The notes below the pieces were generated by a model. The model worked only from the letters and a program-made list of their open reading frames with translations. It was not told where the DNA came from and searched no databases. Positions 2,125 through 29,760 of a DNA stretch of 32,594 nt are shown in pieces. Positions within the stretch are counted from its first letter, which is position 1. Each line of letters begins with the position of its first letter. This DNA is from a virus: the IMG/VR virus record IMGVR_UViG_3300023109_002606, positions 1-32,594 of that record. The stretch is one strand, 5' to 3'. The position numbers and the translations under genes were made by a program.

Positions 2125-2498
2125 TGTATACATACCACGCCACATTAGATAGAGTAGTAGATGGAGATACAGTAGACGCCTTAGTAGATTTAGGATTCGA
2201 TACTTGGAAAAAAGTTAGAATTAGAATGATGGGGATGGATGCTTGGGAATCTAGAACTCGAAATAAAGAAGAAAAGAAAAAAGGATTAGCAGCTAAAGCT
2301 CGCTTAATTGAAATTCTGAATGAAAATGAAAATAAATTTATTTTAGTATCTCATGGAGTAGGAAAATATGGTCGTTGTTTAGGTGAAATTTATGTTGAAA
2401 ACACCTATAATGACAACCCAAATCTACCAGAAATAAGTGTAAATAAAATTTTAATTAACGAAGGCCACGCTAAAGAATATTACGGAGGAAAACGATGA
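2124..2498 (+). CDS. staphylococcal-nuclease-like (thermonuclease) protein
   Basis: This 124-residue protein matches the SNase fold (OB-type barrel) and is complete for a minimal member. Visible motifs are RVVDGDTVDA (10-19, metal-binding Asp), VRIRMMGMDAWESR with the catalytic Arg, Asp and Glu arrangement, KYGRCLGEIYV with the second catalytic Arg, and a closing VNKILINEGHAKEYYGG segment. These enzymes hydrolyse DNA or RNA with calcium. There is no signal peptide, so it acts inside the cell, perhaps in host DNA breakdown for nucleotide reuse. It overlaps the carbamoyltransferase by 4 nt (ATGA). Confidence 0.9.
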   Translation: MYTYHATLDRVVDGDTVDALVDLGFDTWKKVRIRMMGMDAWESRTRNKEEKKKGLAAKARLIEILNENENKFILVSHGVGKYGRCLGEIYVENTYNDNPNLPEISVNKILINEGHAKEYYGGKR

Positions 2499-9574: not shown

Positions 9575-10318
9575 ATGATAGATAAATTAGATTTAGTATC
9601 AATAATTTCAAAGTATCACTTAAATGGTACTGTTGAGCAAGTACGATGGGATATAAAAAATAATACTTTAGGTATTGGTTTTAATTCCCCCTCAAAAGAT
9701 TTATTAGGAAGAATAGATTATAAAGAATTTCCTGTTGAGGATTCAGTTATAGCTATTGGTAATACTAGTCAATTAGTAAAATTAATAGGAATTACAAATG
9801 GTTATTTAAATTTAGAATATAATAAAAAACATAAGTTAATTACCCAATTAATTATTGCTGATAATCAATATACTCTTAATTATGCTTTAGCTGATACTAA
9901 TCATATCCCTGCATCTGGAGAATTAGCAGGAGAATTTGAATATACAGCAACAGCAGAAATAGATAATGAGAGTATTTCAGCTATTGTTAAAGCAAAACAA
10001 GCACTAACTGATGCTAATACAGTTGTAATCAAATACAGCCCAAATGAAGATAATGAAGATAGAATAGAATTATGTTTTGGGGGAAATATTCAATATTCTA
10101 ATAAAGTATCATTTTACTTACAAGATGTTAATTTAGAAGACACAAATATAGATGAACATTATGATTCAAGTAGAATTAAAGAAATAATGTATTGCAATAA
10201 AGATATGACATCAGGAAAATTAAGTTTATGTTTACAAGAAAATAAAGAACATATAAAACTTGAATTTGAAAATGATAAATTAAAAAGCACTTATTATCTT
10301 GTTTCAAAAGAAAAATAA
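9575..10318 (+). CDS. probable DNA polymerase sliding clamp (T4 gp45-like)
   Basis: This 247-residue protein lies directly after the polymerase. Its pattern of many short strands is what a two-domain phage clamp gives: an opening helix (IDKLDLVSIISKYH), VIAIGNTSQLVKLIG in the place of the T4 gp45 segment around its first domain helix, then YTLNYALADTNHIPASG resembling the gp45 linker region. A second half (AIVKAKQALTDANTVVIKY, then NKVSFYLQDVN) repeats the design. T4 gp45 has 228 residues. Similarity is by layout and a few conserved positions only, so this is inference backed by gene order and by gp44- and gp62-like loader genes downstream. Confidence 0.65.
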   Translation: MIDKLDLVSIISKYHLNGTVEQVRWDIKNNTLGIGFNSPSKDLLGRIDYKEFPVEDSVIAIGNTSQLVKLIGITNGYLNLEYNKKHKLITQLIIADNQYTLNYALADTNHIPASGELAGEFEYTATAEIDNESISAIVKAKQALTDANTVVIKYSPNEDNEDRIELCFGGNIQYSNKVSFYLQDVNLEDTNIDEHYDSSRIKEIMYCNKDMTSGKLSLCLQENKEHIKLEFENDKLKSTYYLVSKEK

Positions 10319-10329
10319 TTATATATTTA
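10298..10329 (+). promoter_or_regulatory. probable promoter for hsp20
   Basis: CTTG at 10298-10301, 20 nt, then TATATTTA at 10322-10329. The -33 box lies inside the end of the clamp gene. The bases before the -7 box are ATTA, without the TTCG found at most others. It would give a leader of about 65 nt, the longest in the window, holding the inverted-repeat arm and the UUCG hairpin. Confidence 0.6.
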
Positions 10330-10367
10330 TAATAAACGACCTTAGGGCACAATTTATAGTTTAACCC

Positions 10368-10384
10368 GCTGATCTTCGGACAGC
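10368..10384 (+). promoter_or_regulatory. UUCG-capped hairpin in the hsp20 leader
   Basis: GCTG (10368-10371), a bulged A, then TC pairs with GA and CAGC (10379-10384) around a TTCG loop, giving the very stable C(UUCG)G tetraloop. It ends 18 nt before ATG 10403 in an otherwise AT-rich leader. A heat-shock gene with a structured leader suggests translational or stability control, such as an RNA thermometer, but no start-site sequestration is visible. Confidence 0.65.
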
Positions 10385-10402
10385 ATAAATTTAAAAAATG
10401 AT

Positions 10403-10819
10403 ATGAGTACATTAAACATTAATGAACGTAATCCGTTCGACATTCTATTTAGAAACTTCTTTAATGCAGAAGACCAATTCGCACCAGCATTAAATTCAAA
10501 ACAACCCCATCCCTTAGACATTTATTATGATGATGAAGGACTTCATTTTGAAGTAGCCTGTACAGGACTTACTAAAGATGACCTTGACATTAGTGTAGAA
10601 GGAGATTTATTAAAAATTAGTTATAAAAAACCTAAAAGTGAAATCGACTTCTCAGGTTATATCTATCATGGTTTATCTAGAAAATCATTTGATTTAGGAT
10701 ATAAAATATCTCCAAAATTTAATCTAAATAAGATTGGAGCTGAAATGGAAAATGGTTTATTAAAACTTCATATTCCAATTTCAGAAGAGTCAAAACCAAA
10801 AACAGTAAAAATTAAGTAA
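10403..10819 (+). CDS. small heat-shock protein (Hsp20/alpha-crystallin family)
   Basis: sHSPs are ATP-independent holdases that bind unfolding proteins. The 138-residue protein has a short N-terminal arm (RNPFDILFRNFFNAE), then an alpha-crystallin domain from about residue 33 (HPLDIYYDDEGLHFEVACTG, LTKDDLDISVEGDLLKISY), SRKSFDLGYKISPKFNLNKI, and the family's AEMENGLLKLHIPI strand. A short PKTVKIK tail with an alternating V-I pattern may fit the oligomerisation groove. Hsp20 genes are known in T4-type cyanophages. Here it is grouped with groES and groEL and has its own promoter, a structured leader and flanking inverted repeats. Confidence 0.94.
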   Translation: MSTLNINERNPFDILFRNFFNAEDQFAPALNSKQPHPLDIYYDDEGLHFEVACTGLTKDDLDISVEGDLLKISYKKPKSEIDFSGYIYHGLSRKSFDLGYKISPKFNLNKIGAEMENGLLKLHIPISEESKPKTVKIK

Positions 10820-10836
10820 CCTATTGTGCCCTTAAG

Positions 10837-10868
10837 GTTGTTTTATTAATATACTGTTCGTATATTCA
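10837..10868 (+). promoter_or_regulatory. Bacteroidota-type promoter for the groES-groEL unit
   Basis: GTTG at 10837-10840, 20 nt, then TATATTCA at 10861-10868 with TTCG just before. The -33 box touches the right arm of the inverted repeat. Transcription would begin about 18 nt before ATG 10894, with leader AAATAAATAAAAAAGTTAT, and would serve the 105-residue protein, groES and groEL. Confidence 0.78.
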
Positions 10869-10893
10869 CGTTATAAATAAATAAAAAAGTTAT

Positions 10894-11207
10894 ATGGCAA
10901 ACACAATTATTAAAGATCCAGTATTACTCCCGTATTACATTTCTAAAGATCAGTATTGTTATACTGTAATCGAAATCATTACTCCGGATGAAAAAAATCT
11001 TGGAAGATTTGGCAATAAAGGAAATGAAAATGAAGGTAAAGATTATGAAAAACCTTTAGGTCATTATTCTACTCTAGCTAATGCATTAAAGAAAATAGCA
11101 AAAGTAAAATTAGATACAAAACCTGAATATAATAGTATTTTAGAATATATTAAAACTTGGGAATCAGAAAAAACAGAAATGGAAAAATTATTAAATAAAA
11201 TCGGAAT

Positions 11208-11211: not shown

Positions 11212-13117
<1,906 letters not shown>

Positions 13118-17468: not shown

Positions 17469-18905
17469 ATGAATAAAAGTTTTAAATACATCCCTAAGGA
17501 TGAAAGGAAAAAAATCCTATTAATTTGTGATGATATTAGAGTCCATTCAGGAGTAGCAACAGTTGCTCGTGAAATTGTAATTCATACCGCATCTCATTTT
17601 AATTGGGTAAATATGGCAGGTAGTATTCAACATCCTGAAAAAGGTAAAAGATTTGATTTGAGTTCCGATACAAATAAAAATGCTGGTATCGATGATTCAT
17701 CTGTTATTCTTTACCCAACCGATGGATACGGAACACCAGATTTTCTTAGACAATTAATCAATCTAGAAAAACCTGACGCTATATTATTAATAACAGATCC
17801 AAGATATTTTGAATATATTTTCCAAATGGAAAATGAAATTAGAAAAGATATTCCTATTGCTTATTTAAATATTTGGGATGATTATCCTACACCGTTATAT
17901 AATAAAGCATTTTATGAAGCATGTGATTTGTTAATGGGTATTAGTAAGCAAACAGTAAACATTAATAAATTAGTATTAGGCGATAAAGCAAATGATAAAG
18001 TAATTAAGTATGTTCCTCACGGCTTAAATAATGAGATATTTTATCCTATGACTGAATTTCCTAAAGATTTTCTTGAATTTAAGAATGGGTTATTTGAGGG
18101 AAATGAATTTGAATTTGTAGTATTTTTTAATTCTAGAAATATTAGACGTAAAGCCATTCCTGATACATTATTAGCTTTTAGGTACTTTTTAGATAAACTT
18201 CCTAAAGAAAAAGCTGAAAAATGTGCTATTTTACTTCATACTGAAGAAGTAAGTGAACATGGAACTGATTTAATTGCTATTATAGAGTTATTATTTGAAG
18301 AATACCCAAATAATGTTTTCTTTACTAAAGGTAAATTTGCTCCTGAACATATGAATTATTTATATAATATGGCTGATGTGCAAATATTATTAAGTTCTAA
18401 TGAAGGGTGGGGATTATCTCTTACTGAAGCATTACTAACAGGTACTCCTATTATTGCTAACACAACTGGAGGAATGCAGGATCAAATGCGTTTTGAAGAT
18501 GAAAACGGTAATTGGATTGATTTTAATGCTGATTTCCCTTCAAACCATAATGGTACATATAAAACATCAGGTGAATGGGCATTTCCCGTATTCCCAACAA
18601 ATAGATCAATTCAAGGTTCACCTAGAACACCTTATATTTGGGATGATAGATGTAGTGCCGAAGATGCAGCTGAACAAATTATGAATGTTTATTCATTAGG
18701 AAAAGATAAACAAAAAGAATTAGGTAATAAAGGTAGAGAATGGGCTTTAAATTCAGAAGCAGGATTTACTTCACCACATCAAGCAGAACGTATTGTTGAT
18801 GCCTTTAATTCCTTATTTGATACTTGGAAACCAAGACATAGATTTGAATTTATAGACACTAAAGAAGTTAAAAATAAAGTTATACCACATAAATTGTTAT
18901 ATTAA
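17469..18905 (+). CDS. glycosyltransferase, GT4-like (GT-B fold)
   Basis: The 478-residue protein opens with a Rossmann-like strand KILLICDDIRVHSGVATVAR (15-34), where SGVATV fits the acceptor-side glycine loop. The C-terminal donor domain has FFTKGKFAPEHMNYLYNMAD and SSNEGWGLSLTEALLTGTPI with the EX7E pair Glu312 and Glu320, then ANTTGG. This is the GT4 signature for nucleotide-sugar donors. It starts the glycan cassette and is followed after 0 nt by a second GT4 (TAATG). No membrane segment is visible, so it works in the cytosol on a soluble acceptor, DNA or a membrane-surface lipid. Acceptor and sugar cannot be read from sequence. Confidence 0.9.
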   Translation: MNKSFKYIPKDERKKILLICDDIRVHSGVATVAREIVIHTASHFNWVNMAGSIQHPEKGKRFDLSSDTNKNAGIDDSSVILYPTDGYGTPDFLRQLINLEKPDAILLITDPRYFEYIFQMENEIRKDIPIAYLNIWDDYPTPLYNKAFYEACDLLMGISKQTVNINKLVLGDKANDKVIKYVPHGLNNEIFYPMTEFPKDFLEFKNGLFEGNEFEFVVFFNSRNIRRKAIPDTLLAFRYFLDKLPKEKAEKCAILLHTEEVSEHGTDLIAIIELLFEEYPNNVFFTKGKFAPEHMNYLYNMADVQILLSSNEGWGLSLTEALLTGTPIIANTTGGMQDQMRFEDENGNWIDFNADFPSNHNGTYKTSGEWAFPVFPTNRSIQGSPRTPYIWDDRCSAEDAAEQIMNVYSLGKDKQKELGNKGREWALNSEAGFTSPHQAERIVDAFNSLFDTWKPRHRFEFIDTKEVKNKVIPHKLLY

Positions 18906-20188
18906 TGAAACCATCATTTGTAATTAGTTCTCCTTTTGACACATATAGCGGATATGGAGCCCGCTCACGAGATGTAATTAAAGCTATTATAGCAACCGAA
19001 AAATACGATGTAAAACTCCTTTCTCAAAGATGGGGAAATACACCTTTTGGTTTTTGTAAGGATAATCCTGAATGGGAGTCTTTATTAGATTTAGTAATTC
19101 CAATGCCTCTAACTGAACAACCAGAAATTTGGGCTCAAATTACAGTACCTAATGAATTCCAACCAGTAGGAAAATACAATATAGGAATTACAGCAGGAAT
19201 TGAAACAACATTAGTACCAGGAGAATGGATTGAAGGATGTAATCGTATGAATTTAATCTTAACATCATCCGAACATTCTAAAAATTCTTTTATAAAATCA
19301 GAGTTTGAAAAAAGAAATGAAAATCAATTATTAGGAAAAATCAAATTAGAAACTCCTATAGAAGTATTATTTGAGGGTGCTGATTTAGATATATATAAAA
19401 CTTTAAATACACCTATGACTAATGATGATTTATTTAAGTCAATTGATTCAATTCAAGAATCATTTGCTTATCTATTTGTAGGTCATTGGATGGAAGGCAA
19501 CTTAGGTGAAGATAGAAAAAATGTAGGTTTATTGGTGAAAGCATTTCTTGAAACTTTTAAAAATAAAAAGAAAAGACCTGCTCTTATTTTAAAAACATCT
19601 CATGTTGGTGCTTCTCATATGGATAGAGATTCTATACTGAATAAAATTAAAGCTATTAAAGAAACAGTTAAATCAAATGATCTTCCTAATATATATTTAA
19701 TCCATGGAGATTTTTCAGATACTGAGATGAATGAAATTTATAATCATAGAAAAATTAAAGCTATGATTAGTTTAACTAAAGGTGAAGGATTTGGACGTCC
19801 ATTATTAGAATTTAGTTTATCTAAAAAACCAATTATTGTTAGTGGTTGGAGTGGTCATATGGATTTTCTAAACCCTGAATATAATATTGTAATTGGGGGT
19901 AATTTAACTAAAGTCCATGAAAGTGTAAAAAATCAATTTCTACTTCCTGATGCTGAATGGTTTAGTCCTGATCATGGTTCTATAGGTGGTGCTTTCCAAT
20001 CAGTATTTAAAGATTATAAAAAATACCAACAATTAGGAAAAAGACAAGGTTATCATAGTAAAGAGAATTTTAGTTGGGATAAGATGAAAAACTTATTATC
20101 TTCATTACTAGAAAAAAATATACCTGAATTTCCTAAAGAAATTAGCTTAAAATTACCAAAATTAAATTTACCAAAATTAATAAAATAA
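18905..20188 (+). CDS. glycosyltransferase, GT4-like, second copy
   Basis: The 427-residue GT-B protein has an N-terminal SPFDTYSGYGARSRDVI loop and a donor domain with HVGASHMDRDSI, IYLIHGDFSD and LTKGEGFGRPLLEFSLSKKP, whose EX7E pair (GEGFGRPLLE) is clear, followed by VSGWSGHMDF. It is related to the preceding enzyme in fold but not an obvious recent duplicate. The two N-terminal domains differ in length and sequence, so the acceptors probably differ. It ends with a Leu/Pro/Lys-rich repeat-like tail (KLPKLNLPKLIK), likely a flexible or membrane-contacting end. Confidence 0.9.
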   Translation: MKPSFVISSPFDTYSGYGARSRDVIKAIIATEKYDVKLLSQRWGNTPFGFCKDNPEWESLLDLVIPMPLTEQPEIWAQITVPNEFQPVGKYNIGITAGIETTLVPGEWIEGCNRMNLILTSSEHSKNSFIKSEFEKRNENQLLGKIKLETPIEVLFEGADLDIYKTLNTPMTNDDLFKSIDSIQESFAYLFVGHWMEGNLGEDRKNVGLLVKAFLETFKNKKKRPALILKTSHVGASHMDRDSILNKIKAIKETVKSNDLPNIYLIHGDFSDTEMNEIYNHRKIKAMISLTKGEGFGRPLLEFSLSKKPIIVSGWSGHMDFLNPEYNIVIGGNLTKVHESVKNQFLLPDAEWFSPDHGSIGGAFQSVFKDYKKYQQLGKRQGYHSKENFSWDKMKNLLSSLLEKNIPEFPKEISLKLPKLNLPKLIK

Positions 20189-20191
20189 AAA

Positions 20192-20626
20192 ATGGACAAT
20201 CTAATTATATGCACAAATTGCTCTTCAGATGCATGCTATGTTGATGAAGTAAATAAAGATATTAAAACTTACTTTTGTTATGGATGTGGGTTTCAAAGTA
20301 ACTCTTTAATGAGAGAAGGTGAAGATTTTTATAACCAACAAGTAGAATTATTACCTGAATTATATAAGGATTTATTATCAACTGATGATGATGGAATGGT
20401 TTGGATGCCTTCTACAGTTAATGTTGTTGATAAAGGAATGGTATTTGCTGATGGAACTTCAATTTCAGATTGGAAATGGGCATCTGTGAAAGCGGTATTA
20501 TTAACTGAAGAAGATAATAAAATTAAAGAAGACCAAACCCATAAAATGGATATGACCACAAAAGTTAATTTTGAAAGAAATAATTTTATGGATGCTTTAT
20601 CTTATATTGGATTACTACCTGAATAA
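20192..20626 (+). CDS. zinc-ribbon protein of unknown function
   Basis: The 144-residue protein starts with a four-cysteine zinc ribbon: Cys7 and Cys10 (ICTNC), then Cys29 and Cys32 (FCYGCGFQ). The remainder is acidic, with an aromatic strand region (DDDGMVWMPSTVNVVDKGMV, SDWKWASVKAVLL) and a helical end. It resembles small T4-type phage proteins with an N-terminal ribbon and a WxWA-like segment. It is placed between two glycosyltransferases and overlaps the next by one base. It could be an adaptor for DNA, RNA or protein, or simply an inserted gene. Confidence 0.78.
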   Translation: MDNLIICTNCSSDACYVDEVNKDIKTYFCYGCGFQSNSLMREGEDFYNQQVELLPELYKDLLSTDDDGMVWMPSTVNVVDKGMVFADGTSISDWKWASVKAVLLTEEDNKIKEDQTHKMDMTTKVNFERNNFMDALSYIGLLPE

Positions 20627-21255
20627 TGAAGTTAAGTTACGCTATAACAGTATGTAATGAATTTTTAGAAATACAAAGATTATTACCTTTTATCATTTCT
20701 AATAAACGTCCTCAAGATGAAATAGTAGTTTTAGTTGATTTAACTAAAAACTCCCCAACATCTGAATTATTAGGATACCTACATAAACTAAGTTCAAATA
20801 ACCACATTATACTCTCAGAACAAAATTTTAATGGAGATTTTGCTAGGTGGAAAAATATACTAAACAATTCATGTAATGGTGATTATATATTTCAAATAGA
20901 TGCTGATGAAATGCCTACTGAATATATGATGAAAATAATTCCCCAAGTAATTGAATCTAATGATATAGATTTAATTAGAGTACCTCGTATTAATACAGTA
21001 GAAGGATTAACTGAAGAACATATTCAAAAATGGGGATGGAATGTAAATGAAAAAGGATGGGTTAACTATCCAGATTTCCAATGGAGAATTTATAAAAACG
21101 ATCCTAGAATTCAATGGTATGGAGAAGTTCATGAAAAAATAATTGGTCATTCTACATTTGCCCATTTACCTATGGAAGAACCAGAATTAGCATTAAGACA
21201 TAATAAAACTATTATTAAGCAAGAAAAACAAAACGCATATTACGAGACATTATGA
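20626..21255 (+). CDS. glycosyltransferase, GT2-like (GT-A fold)
   Basis: The 209-residue protein has the GT2 opening LSYAITVCNEFLEIQRLLPF, a VVLVDLTKNSPT nucleotide-binding segment, an FARWKNILNNSCNGDYIFQI helix-strand and the metal-binding DAD at 92-94 followed by EMPTEY. A C-terminal GWVNYPDFQWRIYKN and EVHEKIIG segment matches the acceptor-side motif of many small GT2 enzymes, including LgtF/WaaE-like proteins. Metal-dependent inverting sugar transfer is expected. It is co-transcribed with the sugar epimerase gene (4-nt overlap). No transmembrane helices. Confidence 0.88.
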   Translation: MKLSYAITVCNEFLEIQRLLPFIISNKRPQDEIVVLVDLTKNSPTSELLGYLHKLSSNNHIILSEQNFNGDFARWKNILNNSCNGDYIFQIDADEMPTEYMMKIIPQVIESNDIDLIRVPRINTVEGLTEEHIQKWGWNVNEKGWVNYPDFQWRIYKNDPRIQWYGEVHEKIIGHSTFAHLPMEEPELALRHNKTIIKQEKQNAYYETL

Positions 21256-22256
21256 AAACAGTATTAATCACAGGAGTAGCAGGATTATTAGGAAGTAGAT
21301 TAGCAGATTGGATTATTGAGAATAAACCAGAATATAAAGTAGTAGGTCTTGATGATTTAAGTGGTGGTTTTGAAGAAAACATTAACCCAAAAGTAGATTT
21401 TTGGCAAATGAACCTTACAGAACACCCTATTGAAAATTGTTTTGAGGTACATAAACCTGATTATGTTTTTCATTTTGCGGCTTATGCTGCTGAAGGTTTA
21501 TCTCCTTTTATACGTTGTTATAATTATGATAATAATTTAAAATCAACTGCCCGTATAGTTAATGAATGTATTAAACACGACGTTAAAAGACTAGTATTTA
21601 CGTCAACTCTCGCAGTATATGGACATGGATATGGAGGGATTTTTGATGAAAGTCAACAACAAGCACCAATTGATCCTTATGGAGTAGCTAAGTATGGATG
21701 TGAAATGGACATTCAAATAGCTGGTGAACAACATGGTTTAGATTGGTGTATTATTAGACCTCATAATGTATATGGTGTGAAACAAAACATTTGGGATAAA
21801 TATAGAAATGTATTAGGTATTTGGATGTATCAACACTTAAATGGTATGGATATGACTATTTTTGGTGATGGTAAACAAACCAGAGCATTTAGTTTTATTG
21901 ATGATTCATTAGAACCATTATGGAATGCTGCTGTTAGACCTCAAGCTAGTAAAGAAATTATTAATTTAGGGGGTATTGAAGAAGTATCTATAAAAGAAGC
22001 TTCTACTATCTTAAGAGAAGTGATTGGAGAAGGTGATGTAGTTCATTTAGAACCGAGACATGAAGTTAAACATTCAATACCAACTTACCAAAAATCAGTT
22101 GACTTATTAGGATTTGAGCATAAAACCGATATAAAATCAGGTTTAACACAAATGTGGGAATGGGCTAAAAAACAACCTATGAGAGATAGATTTGTATGGC
22201 CTGAATATGAAATTGATAAAGGTATTTATTCATTTTGGAAAACTGAAAATAAGTGA
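21252..22256 (+). CDS. SDR nucleotide-sugar epimerase/dehydratase
   Basis: An extended short-chain dehydrogenase of 334 residues, normal for GalE/WbpP/UXS-type enzymes. The NAD-binding loop is TGVAGLLG (7-14), with LDDLSGG after strand 2, HFAAYA, the catalytic Ser/Thr in FTSTLAVYG, and YGVAK with Tyr143 and Lys147. IRPHNVYG and RAFSFIDD are typical substrate-side segments for UDP-sugars. It would change a nucleotide-linked hexose before transfer by the neighbouring glycosyltransferases. Epimerase, decarboxylase and HldD-type functions cannot be separated here. The stop overlaps a GTG start downstream. Confidence 0.9.
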   Translation: MKTVLITGVAGLLGSRLADWIIENKPEYKVVGLDDLSGGFEENINPKVDFWQMNLTEHPIENCFEVHKPDYVFHFAAYAAEGLSPFIRCYNYDNNLKSTARIVNECIKHDVKRLVFTSTLAVYGHGYGGIFDESQQQAPIDPYGVAKYGCEMDIQIAGEQHGLDWCIIRPHNVYGVKQNIWDKYRNVLGIWMYQHLNGMDMTIFGDGKQTRAFSFIDDSLEPLWNAAVRPQASKEIINLGGIEEVSIKEASTILREVIGEGDVVHLEPRHEVKHSIPTYQKSVDLLGFEHKTDIKSGLTQMWEWAKKQPMRDRFVWPEYEIDKGIYSFWKTENK

Positions 22257-23122
22257 ATATACTCTATGTAACAAATCATGTTAAAATAGCCCAAGCAAGT
22301 GGAGGATTCATTTCAGATTATCAAAATGATCTTGTATTTTATGGTCTGAGAGAATTATATGGAGATAGTGTTGTTGATTCTACCCAAATTATATCTCTTT
22401 ATAAAGAATATGAAGGAAGAATACCCCAAAGACATTTATGGGGTGCAATGACTACATTTTGGCTTATAGGTGATAATAATATAGATAGAACTAATATTGA
22501 ACAAAAAATTAAAGATCAATTTTATGATTTAATTATTTATGGTTCAATTAAACGTTGTAAAGATTATTATGACTTAGTTTCAAAACATTACCCATCTGAT
22601 AAGATTATTTTAATTGATGGTAATGATGAATCTGAGTTGGATCCATTACATAAAAAACATTTATATTTTAAACGTGAATTAGTAAATGAACATCCTAATT
22701 TAAAACCAATCACATTTGCTATTCCAACACCTAAATTATCTCAACCTAACAAAAATAAAATCCAAGAATATGCTACATGCATCCCCGGTCAACCTGAAAC
22801 TTATGTATTCAAGGAAGAACAACCTTATTATGAGGATTATCAAAAATCTTATTATGGGGTTACTATGAAAAAAGCAGGTTGGGATTGTATGAGACATTAT
22901 GAAATATTAGGTAATTATTGTATGCCTTATTTTACTGATTTAGAAGATTGTCCTAAAGATACATTATCTAGTTTTCCTAAAGAATTGTTATTAGAAGCTA
23001 AAAAATTAGCTAATAATTTTAATCAAGAAAAATATTATACACTTTTAGATAAAGTATTTGAACATACCAAACAACATTTGACAACAAAAAGCTTAGCCAA
23101 ATATATTTTAAGTTATATATAA
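22253..23122 (+). CDS. glycosyltransferase-like protein (GT-B C-terminal type)
   Basis: The start is GTG at 22253, overlapping the previous TGA (GTGA), and no ATG fits as well. The 289-residue protein opens with NILYVTNHVKIAQASGGFI and contains YDLIIYGSIKR, IILIDGNDESE and YFKRELVNEHP. Near its end it has YYGVTMKKAGWDCMRHYEIL followed by GNYCMPYF (200-227). The last segment resembles the conserved C-terminal region of CgeB/YkvP-like and other sugar-cluster GT-B proteins. The donor-binding N-terminal domain is short, so activity is uncertain. Its place in the cassette supports sugar transfer. Confidence 0.72.
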   Translation: MNILYVTNHVKIAQASGGFISDYQNDLVFYGLRELYGDSVVDSTQIISLYKEYEGRIPQRHLWGAMTTFWLIGDNNIDRTNIEQKIKDQFYDLIIYGSIKRCKDYYDLVSKHYPSDKIILIDGNDESELDPLHKKHLYFKRELVNEHPNLKPITFAIPTPKLSQPNKNKIQEYATCIPGQPETYVFKEEQPYYEDYQKSYYGVTMKKAGWDCMRHYEILGNYCMPYFTDLEDCPKDTLSSFPKELLLEAKKLANNFNQEKYYTLLDKVFEHTKQHLTTKSLAKYILSYI

Positions 23123-23125
23123 ATT

Positions 23126-23917
23126 ATGAATTTAAAAGATATTATAAATAAAAGTTGGTATGGTTCTATAGGTTTCATTAACGATGATTTAGATATTGAA
23201 TTATTAGGTTCTTATTTACTACACAATAAATCAGTATCAGATGAGTATAAAGGACATATCTTTGCCTTTACTTATAATAAACTAAATAAAGAATACTTAG
23301 AAAATACCATAACTTCTTTATACCCAGATGCTATTATTATTTACTTAGATAAAAATCGAGGACACAATTTTGGAACAGCTGATTTAGATAATACTATATT
23401 TAATTATTGTAAAGAAAATAATATAGAATGGTTATGTAAAGCTTCAAACGATATAATTTTACAACCTGAAGTATTAGAAATACCAATTCAAGAAGCTGAT
23501 TTTTATTATATGAACGGGGTAGGTTATGGTGGAATGGTTAAATATAGTTTTAGTAATGAACGTATTATAAATGAAGATTTTTTCCCACAAACTAACTTTT
23601 ATTTTATAAATGTATCTAAAACAGATTATCTAAATGATAAAGAATATATAGATAAAACTTATAATGAAATACAAAATATCCCTAATTACAATGGTAAAAT
23701 TTGGGAGTATTTCCAAGGGTGGGAATGTGAAGGATTTTTAAGGGAATGTATTAATAGAAATAAGCTTTTTAAATATCACTTGGTTCCCCAAAAAACTTAT
23801 ATTAAATTATTAGAATATATAAAACAACACCAAATACACGATTGTAGTCACAAAAACATTATGATTAAAGGTATTTGCCATTACCAAAATATAAATCAAA
23901 AAATTACAATATTATGA
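23126..23917 (+). CDS. GT-A-fold glycosyltransferase-like protein
   Basis: The 263-residue protein has IFAFTYNKLNKEYLENTITS, then AIIIYLDKNRGHNFGTADLD (69-88), a GT2-type loop that usually contacts the nucleotide sugar. WLCKASNDIILQPE (102-115) holds an ND pair in the place of the metal-binding DxD. The classical Asp-x-Asp is not clear, so catalysis may use a variant metal site or be lost. The C-terminal part contains YFQGWECEGFLRECINRNKL. It overlaps the methyltransferase gene by 4 nt. Support is by loop pattern and neighbours. Confidence 0.68.
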   Translation: MNLKDIINKSWYGSIGFINDDLDIELLGSYLLHNKSVSDEYKGHIFAFTYNKLNKEYLENTITSLYPDAIIIYLDKNRGHNFGTADLDNTIFNYCKENNIEWLCKASNDIILQPEVLEIPIQEADFYYMNGVGYGGMVKYSFSNERIINEDFFPQTNFYFINVSKTDYLNDKEYIDKTYNEIQNIPNYNGKIWEYFQGWECEGFLRECINRNKLFKYHLVPQKTYIKLLEYIKQHQIHDCSHKNIMIKGICHYQNINQKITIL

Positions 23918-24612
23918 GCGAGATAAACAGCTATGAAGATTTAATCAATTATCTTATTGATTCTAAAATTACAATGGTAAACAAAAGAGAGTTTAATACC
24001 ATATTAAGACACTTTAATTCAATAGTTGATATTGATGGAGATATAGTAGAATGTGGTGTATGGAGAGGTGGGTTTTCTATCTTTTTATCACTAGTTTTTA
24101 GAGATAAAAATATATGGGTCTGTGATTCATATGAAGGTTTCCAACCCCTAGAAGGAGCTAAACATCAATACGATAAAGAAAGGCATACACCTCGTTATAC
24201 ACATAATGCTGATGGTCCCTTAGCTATTAGTTTAGAAGAAGTCCAAAACCATTTTAAAAATTTTGGATTAGGGGATGATCCTAGAATTAAATACCTTAAA
24301 GGGTTTGTTAAAGATACTCTCCCGAATTCAGGTATAGAAAACATCTCAATACTTAGAGTAGATGTAGATGCTTATTCAGCAACATTAGAAGTTTTAGAAG
24401 AACTATATCCTAAAGTAAAAACTGGAGGTTATGTTATATTTGATGATTCTTGCTTATACGAATCTTTAGATGCTATTAAAGTTTATTTTAAAGCAAATAA
24501 CCTCCCTTATTTCTTGTATCATCCAGAAACAGATAAAAAGTTAGATTTAAATAAAAGTTATACTAATGATGATTCAGGTTTTCCAGCAGGGTGTTATATT
24601 ATAAAAGAATGA
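23914..24612 (+). CDS. TylF/MycF-type SAM methyltransferase
   Basis: Members O-methylate sugars using SAM and Mg2+. The 232-residue protein from ATG 23914 (chosen for its ATGA overlap; an upstream frame to 23875 runs into the previous gene) has the SAM motif VECGVWRGGFSIFLSL (45-60), CDSYEGFQPL (70-79), LRVDVDAYSATLEVLEELYP and YVIFDDSCLY, whose Asp residues match the metal site of TylF/MycF. Macrocin O-methyltransferase is the best-known member. In this cassette it would methylate a transferred or nucleotide-bound sugar, making the glycan resistant to recognition or degradation. Confidence 0.9.
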   Translation: MSEINSYEDLINYLIDSKITMVNKREFNTILRHFNSIVDIDGDIVECGVWRGGFSIFLSLVFRDKNIWVCDSYEGFQPLEGAKHQYDKERHTPRYTHNADGPLAISLEEVQNHFKNFGLGDDPRIKYLKGFVKDTLPNSGIENISILRVDVDAYSATLEVLEELYPKVKTGGYVIFDDSCLYESLDAIKVYFKANNLPYFLYHPETDKKLDLNKSYTNDDSGFPAGCYIIKE

Positions 24613-25301
24613 AAATAATCTATAGAATATCAGATGCTGGTTATAAAAAAGAAAAACCAGATTATATAAACAATGAAAATTGTTTAGCTAATGCTACTAA
24701 GGTATTTAAAGATGCTGATTGGTCTGTTATAGCGGATAATGTATCCGAAGATACTAATAACATGATTCAAAAATATGTAACTCGAAGTAGTATTGAATAC
24801 GTCTCTATAGGACATGGAGCTGGGACATTTAATTTAGCATTAGATGAAGCACTACAATATGATAATGATGAAATTGTATATTTTATTGAAAATGATTATA
24901 TCCACAAACCAAATAGCCAAAAAATTATAGAGGAAGGTTTTACCTTAGGAGCCCCCTTTATAGCACTCTACGACCACCCAGATAAGTATTTAGATCCCTC
25001 TAAAGGAGGTAATCCATACTGTCAAGGTAGTGCTGAAGATACTAGAGTATATTTAAGTGATAGTATACATTGGAAAATTACTAATTCAACAACAATGACA
25101 TTTGCTGCTAAAGTATCAACGCTTAAAAAATATGAAGATACTTTAAGAAATTTTACTAAAGATACCCACCCTGATGACTTCCAGATGTTTTTACATTTAA
25201 GAGAACAAGGAGGATTACTATTAACTCCTCTACCAGGTTATGCTACACATGGAGAAACAGCTTGGCTATCACCTTTAACTAATTGGGGGGATTATGTTTA
25301 G
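24609..25301 (+). CDS. GT-A-fold glycosyltransferase-like protein
   Basis: From ATG 24609 (ATGA overlap; a GTG 18 nt upstream is the alternative) it encodes 230 residues. YVSIGHGAGTFNLALDEALQ (64-83) and EIVYFIENDYIHKPNSQKII match the GT-A pattern of a donor loop followed by a strand with an acidic END (94-96) in the DxD position. A THPDDFQMF acidic motif in the C-terminal third could be a catalytic or acceptor site. The last part contains two runs of small residues (LPGYATHGETAWLSP). Similar proteins occur in phage and surface-sugar clusters. It overlaps the next GT2 gene by 8 nt. Confidence 0.72.
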   Translation: MKIIYRISDAGYKKEKPDYINNENCLANATKVFKDADWSVIADNVSEDTNNMIQKYVTRSSIEYVSIGHGAGTFNLALDEALQYDNDEIVYFIENDYIHKPNSQKIIEEGFTLGAPFIALYDHPDKYLDPSKGGNPYCQGSAEDTRVYLSDSIHWKITNSTTMTFAAKVSTLKKYEDTLRNFTKDTHPDDFQMFLHLREQGGLLLTPLPGYATHGETAWLSPLTNWGDYV

Positions 25302-26064
25302 TGTAATTATACCTACATATAAAGAACCTGAATATTTAGACTTATGTTTAAAATCAGCATTCGAGGGGCAAGTAAATAACAATGAAATTATTGTTGTAGT
25401 AGATGGTTTTTTAGAGCTAAACCAACCTATACTTGACAAATACCCAGATGTTAGAGTATTAGATTTAGGTACTAACCAAGGATTATCAGTAGCTACTAAT
25501 TGGGGAGTTTATAATGCTACCCATGATTATATTCTAGTAGTAAATGATGATAATGTATTTCCTAAAGAATGGGATTCTCGTTTAGAAATATTTTGTCAAC
25601 CTGGAGTTGTAGTATCCCCAAATCAGATAGAACCTAAACCATCAATGTTCTCACAATTTATAATTAAAGATTTTGGTCAAACACCTGATGATTTTAATAT
25701 AAATGATTATTGGGAATTTGAGCAAACACAATATAAACAAGCTGAATTAAATGGTTCTACTTTACCCTTTATGATGAATAAATACGATTATCTAGCAGTT
25801 GGTGGTTGGGATGTTATGTATCCTTCTCCTCATGTAGTTGATTGGGATTTTTTCCTTAAATGTGAGTACGTTGGGTATCTTATGAAACGTGCATATATTA
25901 ATTTTTACCATTTTGCAGGAGCCGCTACACGGAAAACTCAAGAACAAAATGCTGAATCAATACGTAAAGAACAATTAGCACATGACTTTTTTAGTATTAA
26001 ATGGGATGGTAGAGCAGAGCATAACCCACAAAATAATTCAAAATTAATCAATAAATTTAAATAA
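25294..26064 (+). CDS. glycosyltransferase, GT2 family
   Basis: The clearest GT2 of the cassette: 256 residues opening with FSVIIPTYKEPEYLDLCLKS, EIIVVVDG in strand 2, LGTNQGLSVATNWGVYNATH as the donor loop, and YILVVNDDNVF with the metal-binding NDDN (84-87). GGWDVMYPSPHVVDWDFFLK is the usual acidic acceptor-side region. Activity is expected because all key residues are there. It is the last enzyme of the continuous glycan block; a 6-nt gap and a small unknown gene follow. Confidence 0.92.
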   Translation: MFSVIIPTYKEPEYLDLCLKSAFEGQVNNNEIIVVVDGFLELNQPILDKYPDVRVLDLGTNQGLSVATNWGVYNATHDYILVVNDDNVFPKEWDSRLEIFCQPGVVVSPNQIEPKPSMFSQFIIKDFGQTPDDFNINDYWEFEQTQYKQAELNGSTLPFMMNKYDYLAVGGWDVMYPSPHVVDWDFFLKCEYVGYLMKRAYINFYHFAGAATRKTQEQNAESIRKEQLAHDFFSIKWDGRAEHNPQNNSKLINKFK

Positions 26065-26226: not shown

Positions 26227-26609
26227 AAAATCTAGGAAAACATCTTATTTTAAAGAAAAGATTATCTCCATTACTTGAAAAGGATTTATTCTGTGAAATT
26301 GTAGATTTATATGAAGATAAAGCAATAAGAAGTACTTTTTTAACCAATGATACTGGCATTAATCTTATTGAATATAATGAAGACTTTTATTTAATTATTG
26401 AGAATCTTCTCTATTTAAAATATGGAGAATGGAAAACAGAAATAATTTCATGGTATATTTGGGAAAGAAAAGATCATATTACTGGTGAAATAGGATTAAT
26501 GGAATGGTCTAATAGTAAAACAGATGAAGTAAAAGAAGTAATAATAAAATGTTCTGAAGATTTATGGGATATTTTAGAAGAAATAGATAAAAAAAGTGAA
26601 GATGAATAA
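26223..26609 (+). CDS. unknown 128-residue protein
   Basis: The protein has a basic N terminus (KNLGKHLILKKRLSPLLEKD), an aromatic middle (NEDFYLIIENLLYLKYGEW, IISWYIWERKD) and an acidic, helical C-terminal half. No signal peptide, membrane segment or catalytic motif is evident. It overlaps the nucleotidyltransferase gene by 8 nt and lies between the glycan cassette and the HldE-like genes. Function unknown. Confidence 0.75.
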   Translation: MKNLGKHLILKKRLSPLLEKDLFCEIVDLYEDKAIRSTFLTNDTGINLIEYNEDFYLIIENLLYLKYGEWKTEIISWYIWERKDHITGEIGLMEWSNSKTDEVKEVIIKCSEDLWDILEEIDKKSEDE

Positions 26610-27018
26610 AATAGGGATTACATGCTCTAGTTTTGATTTATTACATGCAGGTCATATTAAAATGTTAGAAGAAGCATATAATAATTGTGATTATTTAATT
26701 GTAGCGTTACAAACGGATCCAACAATTGATAGACCAAATAAAAATAAACCCATCCAATCTCTAGTTGAGAGATACATTCAATTAAAAGGATGTAAGTTTG
26801 TAGATGAAATTATACCTTACCAAACAGAAAAAGAATTAGAAGAAATATTTTTATCTTTTAATCTAGATGTTAGATTTATAGGTAGTGATTATCTTAATAA
26901 AGATTTCACCGCTAAAAAAATATGTGAACATTTAAATATTTATATTCATTATAATAGTAGAAACCATAATTTTTCTAGTTCAGGACTAAGAAATAAAATA
27001 AAAGATCAACATGCCTAA
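26602..27018 (+). CDS. cytidylyl/adenylyltransferase, TagD/HldE C-domain-like
   Basis: A 138-residue nucleotidyltransferase with the HxGH signature: ITCSSFDLLHAGHIKMLEEA (6-25, His15 and His18), then LIVALQTDPT (32-41), LVERYIQLKGCKFVDEIIPY and a closing SSSGLRNKI that fits the family's S-T/S-x-I/L-R element. These enzymes couple CTP or ATP to a phosphorylated polyol or sugar. The start is ATG 26602, overlapping the previous stop; a GTG at 26596 is possible. Candidates are glycerol-3-phosphate cytidylyltransferase (TagD) and heptose-1-phosphate adenylyltransferase (HldE C domain); the HldE-like kinase at 28982 favours the second. Confidence 0.85.
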   Translation: MNKIGITCSSFDLLHAGHIKMLEEAYNNCDYLIVALQTDPTIDRPNKNKPIQSLVERYIQLKGCKFVDEIIPYQTEKELEEIFLSFNLDVRFIGSDYLNKDFTAKKICEHLNIYIHYNSRNHNFSSSGLRNKIKDQHA

Positions 27019-27646
27019 AGCAAAACCACTTGGAAAAGAAATGATTTTAGCAGCTATGGCTAAAACCAAATCTAATAGAGCAGCATGTAGATATTTAAAC
27101 GTGTCATATCAACACTATAAAAAATGGGCAAAAGAATATGATGCTACTGAAGAAGGATATCCTAATTTATTTGAACAACACAAAAATCAATCAGGTAAAG
27201 GAATCCCTAAATTTTTAAATCCAGGTAAGAGTGACTTTAATGTTTTAGATATTATTGAGGGTAGATTAGATTCATCATCGTTTAATCCTCAAAAAATCAA
27301 ACATAGGATGATTGAAGAGGGATATTTAAAAGAAGAATGTAATCAATGTGGGTATCATGAACGAAGAGTAATTGATTATAAAATGGCATTACTTTTACAT
27401 TTTAAGGATGGTAATAAAAAACATTATGGTTTAAATAATGTAGAATTTCTCTGTTATAATTGTTATTTTACATCCATTGGGGATATTTTTAATGATAAAC
27501 AAATTGAAGGAATGGAAGACCATAAACCAATAAACAAATCAGAAGTTGATTGGGAGTTAGATGAATATACTAAACAACGATTAGCTGAATTAGGATTAGG
27601 TGATGATCCTAAGGATGATGAATTAGATATAATTTCAAGATTATAA
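27011..27646 (+). CDS. HTH plus degenerate HNH/zinc-finger protein
   Basis: The 211-residue protein begins with a helical domain resembling a helix-turn-helix (NRAACRYLNVSYQHYKKWAK, 22-41). A treble-clef-like zinc site follows: Cys110 and Cys113 (ECNQCGYHE), then LLLHFKDGNKKHYGLNNVEF with His130, and FLCYNCY with Cys148 and Cys151. The spacing matches HNH endonucleases, but the second catalytic His position and the final NCH histidine are changed (NCY). It may bind DNA without cutting, or be a weak nuclease. The C-terminal 50 residues are acidic. It overlaps the nucleotidyltransferase gene by 8 nt. Confidence 0.78.
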   Translation: MPKAKPLGKEMILAAMAKTKSNRAACRYLNVSYQHYKKWAKEYDATEEGYPNLFEQHKNQSGKGIPKFLNPGKSDFNVLDIIEGRLDSSSFNPQKIKHRMIEEGYLKEECNQCGYHERRVIDYKMALLLHFKDGNKKHYGLNNVEFLCYNCYFTSIGDIFNDKQIEGMEDHKPINKSEVDWELDEYTKQRLAELGLGDDPKDDELDIISRL

Positions 27647-27648
27647 TT

Positions 27649-27837
27649 ATGGGAAGGAAAAAAATACCTTTACTAAAAAAGAAAAAACATCGTAAACATG
27701 ATAAACTTGTTAACGATTATGAGAACCAAAAAAATAAACATTTAGAAAAACTTGCTACAAAAACCTTGGATAAGCAAGAAAAGCTTAGTAAATTACGGGA
27801 GAAGAAAATAGATAAAGACTTTTTAGATTTATTTTAA
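27649..27837 (+). CDS. small lysine-rich protein
   Basis: A 62-residue, extremely basic helical protein (GRKKIPLLKKKKHRKHDKLV, then NDYENQKNKHLEKLATKTL). The charge suggests nucleic-acid binding. The last ten residues are acidic and hydrophobic (KDFLDLF), a possible docking tail for another protein. It follows the HNH-like gene by 2 nt and precedes the next gene by 3 nt. No family recognised. Confidence 0.72.
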   Translation: MGRKKIPLLKKKKHRKHDKLVNDYENQKNKHLEKLATKTLDKQEKLSKLREKKIDKDFLDLF

Positions 27838-27840
27838 ATT

Positions 27841-28188
27841 ATGAAATACAAACCAAAAGAATTTCTTGTAGACTCAGTTGAAGAATTTGAAGACATGGTA
27901 ATGAATAAGGATTTTAGAATAACCGAATCTATTGTAGAAGGGATATTTGCAAATCTTAATACCAAGAAAAAACATATTCATTTACTGTCAGTAATAGTTG
28001 AATCCGAAAACTCAATATTTGATATTACTATTGAACGAAAACATTTTGCTGAAACATTAGAAGAAAATCTTCCTAATTATGTTAGAGAAGAAAAATATGA
28101 AGAATGTCAACGTATAGCTGATACTATTAATAAATTAAAATCATCACAAGTATCTGATATTTTAAACCAAGTTAAAAATAAAAAATAA
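27841..28188 (+). CDS. unknown 115-residue protein
   Basis: A soluble, charged protein. The first part is helical and acidic (SVEEFEDMVMNKDFRITESI), the middle is a strand pair (KHIHLLSVIVES, SIFDITIERKHF) and the end is a long helix rich in K, E and S (YEECQRIADTINKLKSSQVS). This resembles small phage regulatory or scaffold-like proteins but nothing specific. It is separated from its neighbours by only 3 nt on each side. Confidence 0.75.
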   Translation: MKYKPKEFLVDSVEEFEDMVMNKDFRITESIVEGIFANLNTKKKHIHLLSVIVESENSIFDITIERKHFAETLEENLPNYVREEKYEECQRIADTINKLKSSQVSDILNQVKNKK

Positions 28189-28191
28189 GTT

Positions 28192-28719
28192 ATGAAAAAA
28201 GTTTTATTAATATTAATGATTCCATTTATAATTAGTAATGGTCATGTAGTTACTTCTAATAGTATAATAGCAGCTGAAATTAACCCCATAAAAAATATTG
28301 AAGAATTTAACACAGAAGAACCAGTTATTGAAAAACCAATTACAATATCACCCAAACCCATTAATGATTTGGTTAACGCATTAATATACGTTGAATCCCG
28401 TGGTATAGACAGCGCTATTGGTGATAAACATTTAGATCAACCATCAGTAGGTGTATTACAAATCCGTCCTATTATGGTTAGAGAAGTAAATAGAATTTGT
28501 AAAAGAATAGGTTCATACCAAAGATTTACTTTAAAAGATAGATTTGATCGTGATAAATCAGTTCATATGTTTCTAATATGGAAAGAATTTCATCATAAAG
28601 ATAGTGATTTTGAATCAATTGCTAGAAGTTGGAATGGTGGACCTAAAGGTCCTAAATTAAGTAGAACTATTCCATATTGGGAAAAAGTAGAAAAACAATT
28701 AAATAATCAAAATAATTAA
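28192..28719 (+). CDS. secreted SLT/lysozyme-like muramidase
   Basis: A 175-residue protein with a signal peptide (KKVLLILMIPFIISNGHVV, probable cleavage after AAA near residue 28) and a Glu/Pro-rich linker. A lysozyme-fold domain follows: LVNALIYVESRGIDSAIGD (60-78) holds the likely catalytic Glu68, SVGVLQIRPIMVREVNRI matches the soluble-lytic-transglycosylase GxLQI-like motif, and ARSWNGGPKGP fits the AYNxG-type substrate loop. It would cleave peptidoglycan in the periplasm. Sec-dependent export suggests a role in lysis or in entry-related wall opening. The start follows AAATAAGTTATG. Confidence 0.85.
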   Translation: MKKVLLILMIPFIISNGHVVTSNSIIAAEINPIKNIEEFNTEEPVIEKPITISPKPINDLVNALIYVESRGIDSAIGDKHLDQPSVGVLQIRPIMVREVNRICKRIGSYQRFTLKDRFDRDKSVHMFLIWKEFHHKDSDFESIARSWNGGPKGPKLSRTIPYWEKVEKQLNNQNN

Positions 28720-28724
28720 TTAAA

Positions 28725-28865
28725 ATGAGCAAAAACTCTTCAAAACAAAATTACACAACATTCCAAGAATGGCATAAATGGGCTAAATCAAAATACCCAA
28801 GCTATAAAGTTGCTAGTAAGAAAAAACCAACACAGAAACCAATTTGGTCTTTATTTGATGAATGA
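28725..28865 (+). CDS. small basic protein
   Basis: A 46-residue frame from ATG 28725 (5 nt after the muramidase stop, behind AATTAAA) to TGA 28865, overlapping the next gene by 8 nt. The sequence is aromatic and basic (YTTFQEWHKWAKSKYPSYKV, then KKKPTQKPIWSLFDE). The overlap pattern and codon use match true neighbours. It has no recognisable motif. Confidence 0.62.
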   Translation: MSKNSSKQNYTTFQEWHKWAKSKYPSYKVASKKKPTQKPIWSLFDE

Positions 28866-29028
28866 TTCAATATCTTTTTTTCATAGTATTCCTGATGATG
28901 TTATGATTGAAATTGCTTTAAAAGATTGGGGGTCATTAGAAGCATTATGTCAAGGTTTAGCTATTGATTTACAATTACAAAATGAAAAAAATAATGAAAG
29001 TACTAGTAATAGGAGAAACGTGTGTTGA
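28858..29028 (+). CDS. small protein overlapping the kinase gene
   Basis: From ATG 28858 it encodes 56 residues with a DSISFFHSIPDDVMIEIALK core and a helical WGSLEALCQGLAIDLQLQNE segment. Its 3' end overlaps the PfkB-like gene by 47 nt in another frame, an unusually long overlap for this window. An upstream in-frame TTG at 28810 is less likely because it would overlap the preceding gene more. Function unknown. Confidence 0.55.
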   Translation: MNDSISFFHSIPDDVMIEIALKDWGSLEALCQGLAIDLQLQNEKNNESTSNRRNVC

Positions 29029-29731
29029 TAAATTTATTTATTGTGAAACAAATAGAATATCACCTGAAGCCCCTGTACCTGTAATTAATCCAATTACAAT
29101 TACTACAAATGAAGGGATGGCTGGAAACACAGTAGCAAATATCAAATCTCTATTTCCTGAAAGTATTGTAGCTGGTATCCATCAGAAACAAAATATTTTA
29201 AAAACAAGATATGTAGAGGATAAGTCAAATCATATGTTCATTCGTGTAGATGAAGGTGAAAAATTTGATGATAGATTTGTATGGAATAGTTTTACTGATA
29301 TGAGTATAGGAAGTGCAGATATTGTAATAGTTAGTGATTATAATAAAGGATTTCTAACAAACGCTGATTTAAAAGAAATTGCTCGTAAATCAACTTTATC
29401 TATTTTAGATAGTAAACGTAAATTAACTGATGATATTATTGAAGGTTTTACATTTGTTAAATTAAATGAATCTGAACATTTAAACAATCCAGATTTAACT
29501 ACAGATAATATTATTACTACATTAGGTAAAAAAGGAGCTTTGTATAATGGTGAATTATTTGAATCACCAAATCCACAAGATACAATTGACGTATCAGGAG
29601 CTGGGGATACATTTACTGCTGCTTTTATAGGTAAATTTTACCAATTACAGGAAGAAAATGCAGCTATTAGATTTGCAAATCGTAAATCATCTGAAGTAGT
29701 TTCTCAAAGAGGCGTGGTTACTGCAAAATAA
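28982..29731 (+). CDS. PfkB-family sugar kinase, HldE kinase-domain-like
   Basis: The protein (249 residues from ATG 28982; ATG 28994 is an equally plausible start) has the ribokinase fold. VLVIGETCVDKFIYCETNRI is followed by SPEAPVPV, which is nearly diagnostic of the HldE kinase domain (heptose-7-phosphate kinase). Next come NEGMAGNTVANIKSLFP, the strand IVIVSDYNKGFL and the anion-hole/catalytic DVSGAGDTFTAAF with Asp at about 209. It is short against about 318 residues for the E. coli HldE N domain, with a reduced central region. Paired with the nucleotidyltransferase at 26602 it suggests a split HldE. Confidence 0.88.
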   Translation: MKKIMKVLVIGETCVDKFIYCETNRISPEAPVPVINPITITTNEGMAGNTVANIKSLFPESIVAGIHQKQNILKTRYVEDKSNHMFIRVDEGEKFDDRFVWNSFTDMSIGSADIVIVSDYNKGFLTNADLKEIARKSTLSILDSKRKLTDDIIEGFTFVKLNESEHLNNPDLTTDNIITTLGKKGALYNGELFESPNPQDTIDVSGAGDTFTAAFIGKFYQLQEENAAIRFANRKSSEVVSQRGVVTAK

Positions 29732-29744: not shown

Positions 29745-29760
29745 GGTATAAATAAAGGTT

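Follow-up and report, generated by a model that had tools for sequence, protein, structure and literature searches.

A compact HldA-like kinase and a nucleotidyltransferase of separate lineage in a marine T4-like phage

A kinase gene and a nucleotidyltransferase gene lie downstream of a glycan cluster

The window analyzed here is an entire IMG/VR virus record (IMGVR_UViG_3300023109_002606), a 32.6-kb fragment of a marine T4-like phage. The initial annotation reported two genes in it, one encoding an HxGH nucleotidyltransferase (NTase) and the other a PfkB kinase with the motifs RISPEAPVPV and GAGDT, and interpreted them as a split HldE, i.e., as a bacterial enzyme of lipopolysaccharide heptose synthesis divided over two genes. 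Both genes are indeed present, with 1,975 bp and several small genes between them: the NTase gene extends from an ATG at 26602 to a stop at 27018 and the kinase gene from an ATG at 28994 to a stop at 29731. Both are placed just 3' of a gene cluster encoding glycosyltransferases, methyltransferases, and an epimerase. As described below, the kinase half of the interpretation stands, whereas the NTase half and the pairing do not. The features considered are the following.

28994..29731, + strand: PfkB kinase, compact and HldA-like (phrog_8133), 245 amino acids (aa), with the putative catalytic Asp in DVSGAGDT (from profiles, alignment, tree, and model)
26602..27018, + strand: stand-alone HxGH NTase of a flavobacterial/phage family, 138 aa
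27011..27646, + strand: conserved gene between NTase and kinase, also found in relatives, with weak matches to HTH_28 and to an HNH endonuclease (phrog_14736)
27649-27837, 27841-28188, and 28192-28719, + strand: three small genes between NTase and kinase, with no match tied to sugar metabolism
28810..29028, + strand: small open reading frame (ORF) that shares 35 bases with the start of the kinase gene; in relatives, similar ORFs are found immediately 5' of the kinase
21252..22256, + strand: NAD-dependent sugar epimerase/dehydratase, GalE-like (105.6 bits, versus 65.9 bits for the HldD model)
17469-26064: glycosyltransferase/methyltransferase/epimerase cluster containing the preceding gene (glycosyltransferases named from sequence reading)

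The window kinase belongs to a phage family beside HldA

The top NCBIfam model for the window kinase was rfaE_dom_I (114.9 bits, E 4e-33), followed by the bifunctional HldE model (71.4 bits) and ribokinase (37.8 bits). The protein also matched Pfam PfkB (E 2.7e-13) and phrog_8133 (E 3e-63), a family of unknown function in PHROGs. These matches are far beyond chance, but the score remained below the equivalog cut-off of 345 bits for the HldA/HldE kinase (TIGR02198), so we call the protein HldA-like and do not file it as HldA.

We aligned the window kinase with Salmonella HldE and 15 bacterial HldA proteins and also checked conservation in 61 phage kinases. In comparison with HldA/HldE, the window protein is missing ∼30 residues behind GGAGNV and ∼20 behind NxxE as well as the C-terminal helix; in HldA, these parts are one beta-alpha unit, one helix, and the C-terminal helix. 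Despite the two internal deletions, it retains RISPEAPVPV, KTR...RVD, SDYNKG, DxK, NxxE, and DVSGAGDT. The phage kinases carry these signatures as RxSPEAPVPV, GMxGN, KTR...RxD, SDYxKG, DxK, NxxE, and GAGDT, most key positions being invariant or nearly so across the 61 sequences. In a phylogenetic tree, the phage kinases formed one clade (support 96/91) beside HldA/HldE, with fructokinase-type and general PfkB proteins farther away; HldA itself was weakly supported in this tree (47/90), and some long branches meet there.

An AlphaFold2 model of the window kinase, built from the 61 sequences, had a mean predicted local distance difference test (pLDDT) score of 93.3. Its best match among solved structures was Burkholderia cenocepacia HldA (4e84; Z 24.9, root mean square deviation 2.7, 237 aligned residues, 25% identity), ahead of ribokinases (Z 23.0, 16 to 17% identity). 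The bacterial enzyme has the same PfkB fold and shares RISPEAPVPV, KxR...RxD, SDYxKG, NxxE, and GAGDT but is longer (∼315 to 330 aa). The earlier assignment to the HldE kinase type is supported by profile matches, phylogeny, predicted fold, and signature residues, and the window protein is probably a compact HldA-type sugar-phosphate kinase of a phage-only family. One phage kinase (L227, 1040-2476) is the C-terminal part of an in-frame fusion; the N-terminal region of ∼230 aa has no NCBIfam match and looks glycosyltransferase-like by eye.

The window NTase belongs to another lineage

The window NTase matched Pfam CTP_transf_like (E 6e-14) and showed no preference between the second domain of HldE (rfaE_dom_II, TIGR02199; 66.3 bits, cut-off 181.5) and TagD (TIGR01518; 63.1 bits, cut-off 165.4), reaching neither equivalog cut-off. 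For comparison, true HldC passed the TIGR02199 cut-off in 89 of 119 genomes. In a tree of 60 NTases, the window gene fell in a clade of its own (100/99) with flavobacterial chromosomal NTases and NTases of Vibrio and Acinetobacter phages, apart both from HldC and the HldE C-terminal domain and from the NTases linked to phage kinases. Heptose NTases carry an (F/L)xxGxSTT motif (PMC11461863, PMC11573728). All 11 HldC proteins examined have [FLY]xxGxST[ST] at this place, where the window NTase has RNHNFSSS and thus lacks the heptose-NTase motif. Reading the Arg at the Phe/Leu position as the Arg of STTR5 was ruled out, since PMC11573728 gives (F/L)xxGRSTT.

Stand-alone relatives of the window NTase occur in Vibrio and Acinetobacter phages (55 to 58% identity) and in metagenomic phages (up to 74% over most of the length and 87% over a 69-residue fragment). 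Chromosomal relatives of the same clade are found in Flavobacteriia and their kin (60 to 68% identity). These flavobacterial genes belong to polysaccharide loci, without a kinase partner, and are surrounded by genes for a UDP-sugar epimerase and dehydrogenase, a GDP-fucose synthase, and a mannose-1-phosphate guanylyltransferase (named from sequence reading).

The surroundings in flavobacteria raise the possibility that the window NTase is an ordinary cytidylyltransferase for glycerol-3-phosphate or another polyol or sugar phosphate, derived from a flavobacterial polysaccharide locus. Its top sequence matches in the PDB are ethanolamine-phosphate and glycerol-3-phosphate cytidylyltransferases, and its TagD score is close to its HldE score. 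TagD-type enzymes carry RTEGISTT, and the NTase has an invariant Arg at the corresponding place; RNHNFSSS has only this Arg and one Ser in common with that type of motif. However, the placement of the clade beside TagD is weak (85/87) and its stem is long (1.29), and we regard this assignment as rather unlikely. It concerns the NTase only and is compatible with our reading of the kinase.

Kinase and NTase are not inherited together

No kinase of the window type turned up near the NTase in any of its 112 relatives, 80 of them bacterial and 32 viral. Among 22 bacterial genomes with a window-type NTase, 20 lacked a clear HldE-type kinase; the other two had one (356 and 344 bits), and 7 of the 20 gave only weak PfkB matches that are probably general. 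Conversely, close relatives of the window hold the kinase between the same neighbors, but the position of the NTase is mostly filled by a CxxC protein of 60 to 94 aa. The two genes are therefore not conserved jointly, as a functional pair derived from HldE would be.

The clearest case is the relative L012, whose DNA matches the window at 72% up to position 26590 and at 81% from position 26988, whereas the stretch between, which holds the NTase gene, is nonhomologous: a small CxxC protein exactly replaces the NTase. As the flanks match and only this stretch does not, the NTase is a locally exchanged gene. Another relative (L014) has a divergent NTase of the window clade ∼8.8 kb from its kinase. 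By its position in the tree, its motif, the gene order around it, and its one-for-one replacement in L012, the window NTase is not the partner of the kinase by descent and belongs to a separate, independently exchanged family.

We also considered whether separate genes are unusual. Among the 119 genomes searched, all from one bacterial class, kinase matches lay mostly in frames of ∼300 to 370 aa and NTase matches mostly in frames of ∼150 to 215 aa, with few fusions, so that HldA and HldC are usually encoded separately in this class. Since, in addition, GenBank phages hold adjacent kinase/NTase pairs, the split arrangement is unremarkable in itself. Many phage records label the NTase "bifunctional heptose 7-phosphate kinase/heptose 1-phosphate adenyltransferase." Our analysis corrects this automatic pairing and separates two NTase families that bear the label.

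In other phages the kinase is linked to a putative NDP-heptose-type cassette

We counted genes within 7 kb of the kinase in phage loci banded by kinase identity to the window (near-identical contigs included).

Below 45% identity (n = 57): HldC-like NTase 44, HAD protein of 100 to 110 aa 35, cupin 34, HldD-like epimerase 14
45 to 57% identity (n = 20): HldC-like NTase 11, HAD 2, cupin 9, HldD-like epimerase 0
At least 57% identity (n = 17): HldC-like NTase 2, HAD 2, cupin 2, HldD-like epimerase 0

A compact example is a five-gene operon (L195) in the order cupin-HAD-NTase-kinase-epimerase, whose NTase scores 101.5 bits as the HldE C-terminal domain versus 76.6 bits as TagD and whose HldD-like epimerase scores 168 bits as HldD. 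The linked HAD proteins have a DxDGT motif and match the model for the EcbF-BcbF capsule phosphatase best. In the predicted fold of the cupin, the CapF cupin, phosphomannose isomerase, lyxose isomerase, and KdgF score closely (Z ∼15 to 16); the protein is about as similar to sugar isomerases as to other cupins, and an isomerase role is possible. The Phe/Leu of FxxGxSTT in HldC is replaced by Arg or Lys in 42 of the 50 phage NTases linked to the kinase (e.g., L195 7619-8020). Cytidylyltransferases have Arg or Lys there, and the kinase-linked NTases may prefer CTP. Together, kinase, HldC-like NTase, HAD, and cupin, with or without an HldD-like epimerase, look like a miniature nucleoside diphosphate (NDP)-heptose-type pathway that seems to be scattered in the window lineage. 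Consistent with this, a relative of ∼164 kb (G011) has an HldC-like NTase ∼17.5 kb from its kinase and, close to one end of the record, a cupin of the cassette family. The record yielded no HAD of the cassette family, and a search near its end for its first 20 to 100 bases revealed no terminal repeat, so it may be incomplete.

Several annotations in these loci deserve comment. Cyanophage genes annotated as phosphoheptose isomerase look like HAD-type phosphatases (L002 6719-7063, L003 11975-12286, L004 6713-7036, and L005 7658-7993), and genes labeled cysteine dioxygenase or putative nucleotidyltransferase that adjoin some of these HADs are cupins. In a glycan cluster of the close relative L040, a cupin-like gene is flanked by two proteins (10106-11191 and 11511-12878) in which an NTP_transferase-type domain appears to be fused to a HAD domain.

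Phage cassettes of this kind have been described previously. Cyanophage PfkB kinases accompanied by HIGH nucleotidyltransferases, cupins, HAD phosphatases, and epimerases were proposed to act in glycan or secondary metabolism (PMC7824862), and rfaE was counted among the lipopolysaccharide-related genes of pelagimyophages (PMC7029224). The clusters of P-SSM2, S-CAM1, S-SSM7, P-TIM68, and S-SM2 (T4-GC 304-308) contain the same kinase family (32 to 40% identical); unlike in the window, where the nearby NTase is of the other lineage, the kinase there usually adjoins or lies near an HldC-like NTase. Functional viral NDP-heptose enzymes were reported by Tang et al. (2024), as summarized in PMC11461863 and PMC11573728; their kinase and NTase types fit the overall pathway considered here. 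In contrast to that system as outlined there, the phage cassettes carry a HAD of ∼100 aa next to the kinase, and their NTases have Arg/Lys for the Phe/Leu of the motif. Thus, the window kinase is of a known phage kind. PMC11461863 states that the phosphatase is absent in viruses, and the short HADs beside the HldA-like kinases are candidates for this step.

GmhA- and GmhB-type genes are absent from the window

As the initial annotation had noted, the window contains no GmhA- or GmhB-type gene (HAD306 profile for HAD). It had also suggested searching the rest of the genome for gmhA, gmhB, and hldD. The SIS_2 domain of GmhA was found in none of 17 close-relative records, three of them of ∼164 kb, nor in any of 48 kinase-bearing records that include six complete cyanophage genomes; the controls were positive in 14 and 11 of 14 genomes. 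The epimerase at 21252 was rejected as HldD because it scores higher for GalE, and the short-chain dehydrogenases/reductases (SDRs) of close relatives are likewise not HldD-like; the EPI308 profile, contaminated by general SDRs, was not used. HldD-like and HAD genes occur in the distant cassettes.

Weighing the interpretations

The explanation that we favor, and consider probable as a whole, is that the window carries a compact HldA-type kinase of a phage-specific family, with an NTase of another lineage 2 kb upstream by happenstance. In other marine T4-like phages, the kinase would act with an HldC-like NTase, a HAD phosphatase of ∼100 aa, a cupin as possible isomerase, and an HldD-like epimerase, and these enzymes would jointly supply an NDP-activated heptose or a similar sugar for glycans. 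In the window lineage, the cassette would be scattered or reduced, the kinase being fixed in position and the HldC-like NTase and cupin lying elsewhere, as in the relative of ∼164 kb. Kinase family, predicted fold, signatures, synteny, and NTase lineage are observed; the substrate, product, and biological role are what we infer. Across the kinase family, synthesis of NDP-heptose by phages for use in surface glycans is plausible; during infection, sugars of the heptose type could change the surface of the host.

Several points weigh against this explanation. All profile scores are under their equivalog cut-offs, so that the substrate of neither kinase nor NTase can be read from sequence. A long branch (0.97 changes per column) separates the phage kinases from HldA, so the kinase substrate may have changed. 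A phage with a kinase and some NTase could use both together whatever their descent, and partner genes may lie outside the 32.6-kb fragment.

The long branch, together with the substructures missing relative to HldA, would fit a kinase shifted to a deoxysugar, pentose, or hexose phosphate that serves phage glycosylation or DNA-modification genes. A transketolase-like gene is linked to the kinase in two cyanophages, one of which also has an aldolase-like gene, and the lack of a GmhA-type isomerase domain in the 48 records points the same way. Yet the key positions of the HldA-type KxR...RxD and SDYxKG are invariant across the 61 phage sequences and the kinase is linked to HldC-like and HldD-like genes, so we think such a shift unlikely. 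We judge quite unlikely the more specific scheme of a complete pathway of small enzymes, in which a metal-binding cupin replaces GmhA and the ∼100-aa HAD replaces GmhB, the cupin-HAD-NTase-kinase-epimerase set by itself making NDP-L,D-heptose from sedoheptulose 7-phosphate and being scattered in the window lineage. Finally, a split HldE whose halves act in sequence to form ADP-heptose has in its favor the HldA-like kinase, an HxGH motif of the right superfamily with 66 bits to rfaE_dom_II, and the location of both genes in one co-directional block, but it is highly improbable and was rejected for the reasons given above.

Other features of the window and its relatives

The family B polymerase of the window is nearest to that of Microcystis phage Mel-JY01 (33%), cyanophages being next. 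A protein of G011 (127440-128423, corresponding to L036 9440-10423) has a C terminus that we read as a gliding-motility/type IX secretion system (T9SS)-type domain; so read, it would point to a Bacteroidota host. As the window NTase is also closest to flavobacteria, the host is probably a member of the Bacteroidota.

Directly 3' of the kinase stop and 5' of the next gene (29761), the window contains TATAAATA (29747-29754), which we take to be identical to the T4 late-promoter octamer. Between 736 and 5871 lie genes that are QueD-like (736), QueE-like (1169), hypoxanthine phosphoribosyltransferase-like (4635), and FolE-like (5176), with a NodU-type carbamoyltransferase gene among them (2495-4255); this is possibly a 7-deazaguanine (preQ0) DNA-modification set. 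Finally, positions 11501-13117 hold what by sequence is a full-length GroEL-like chaperonin gene (538 aa), with a homologue in the relative L040 (15873-17498).

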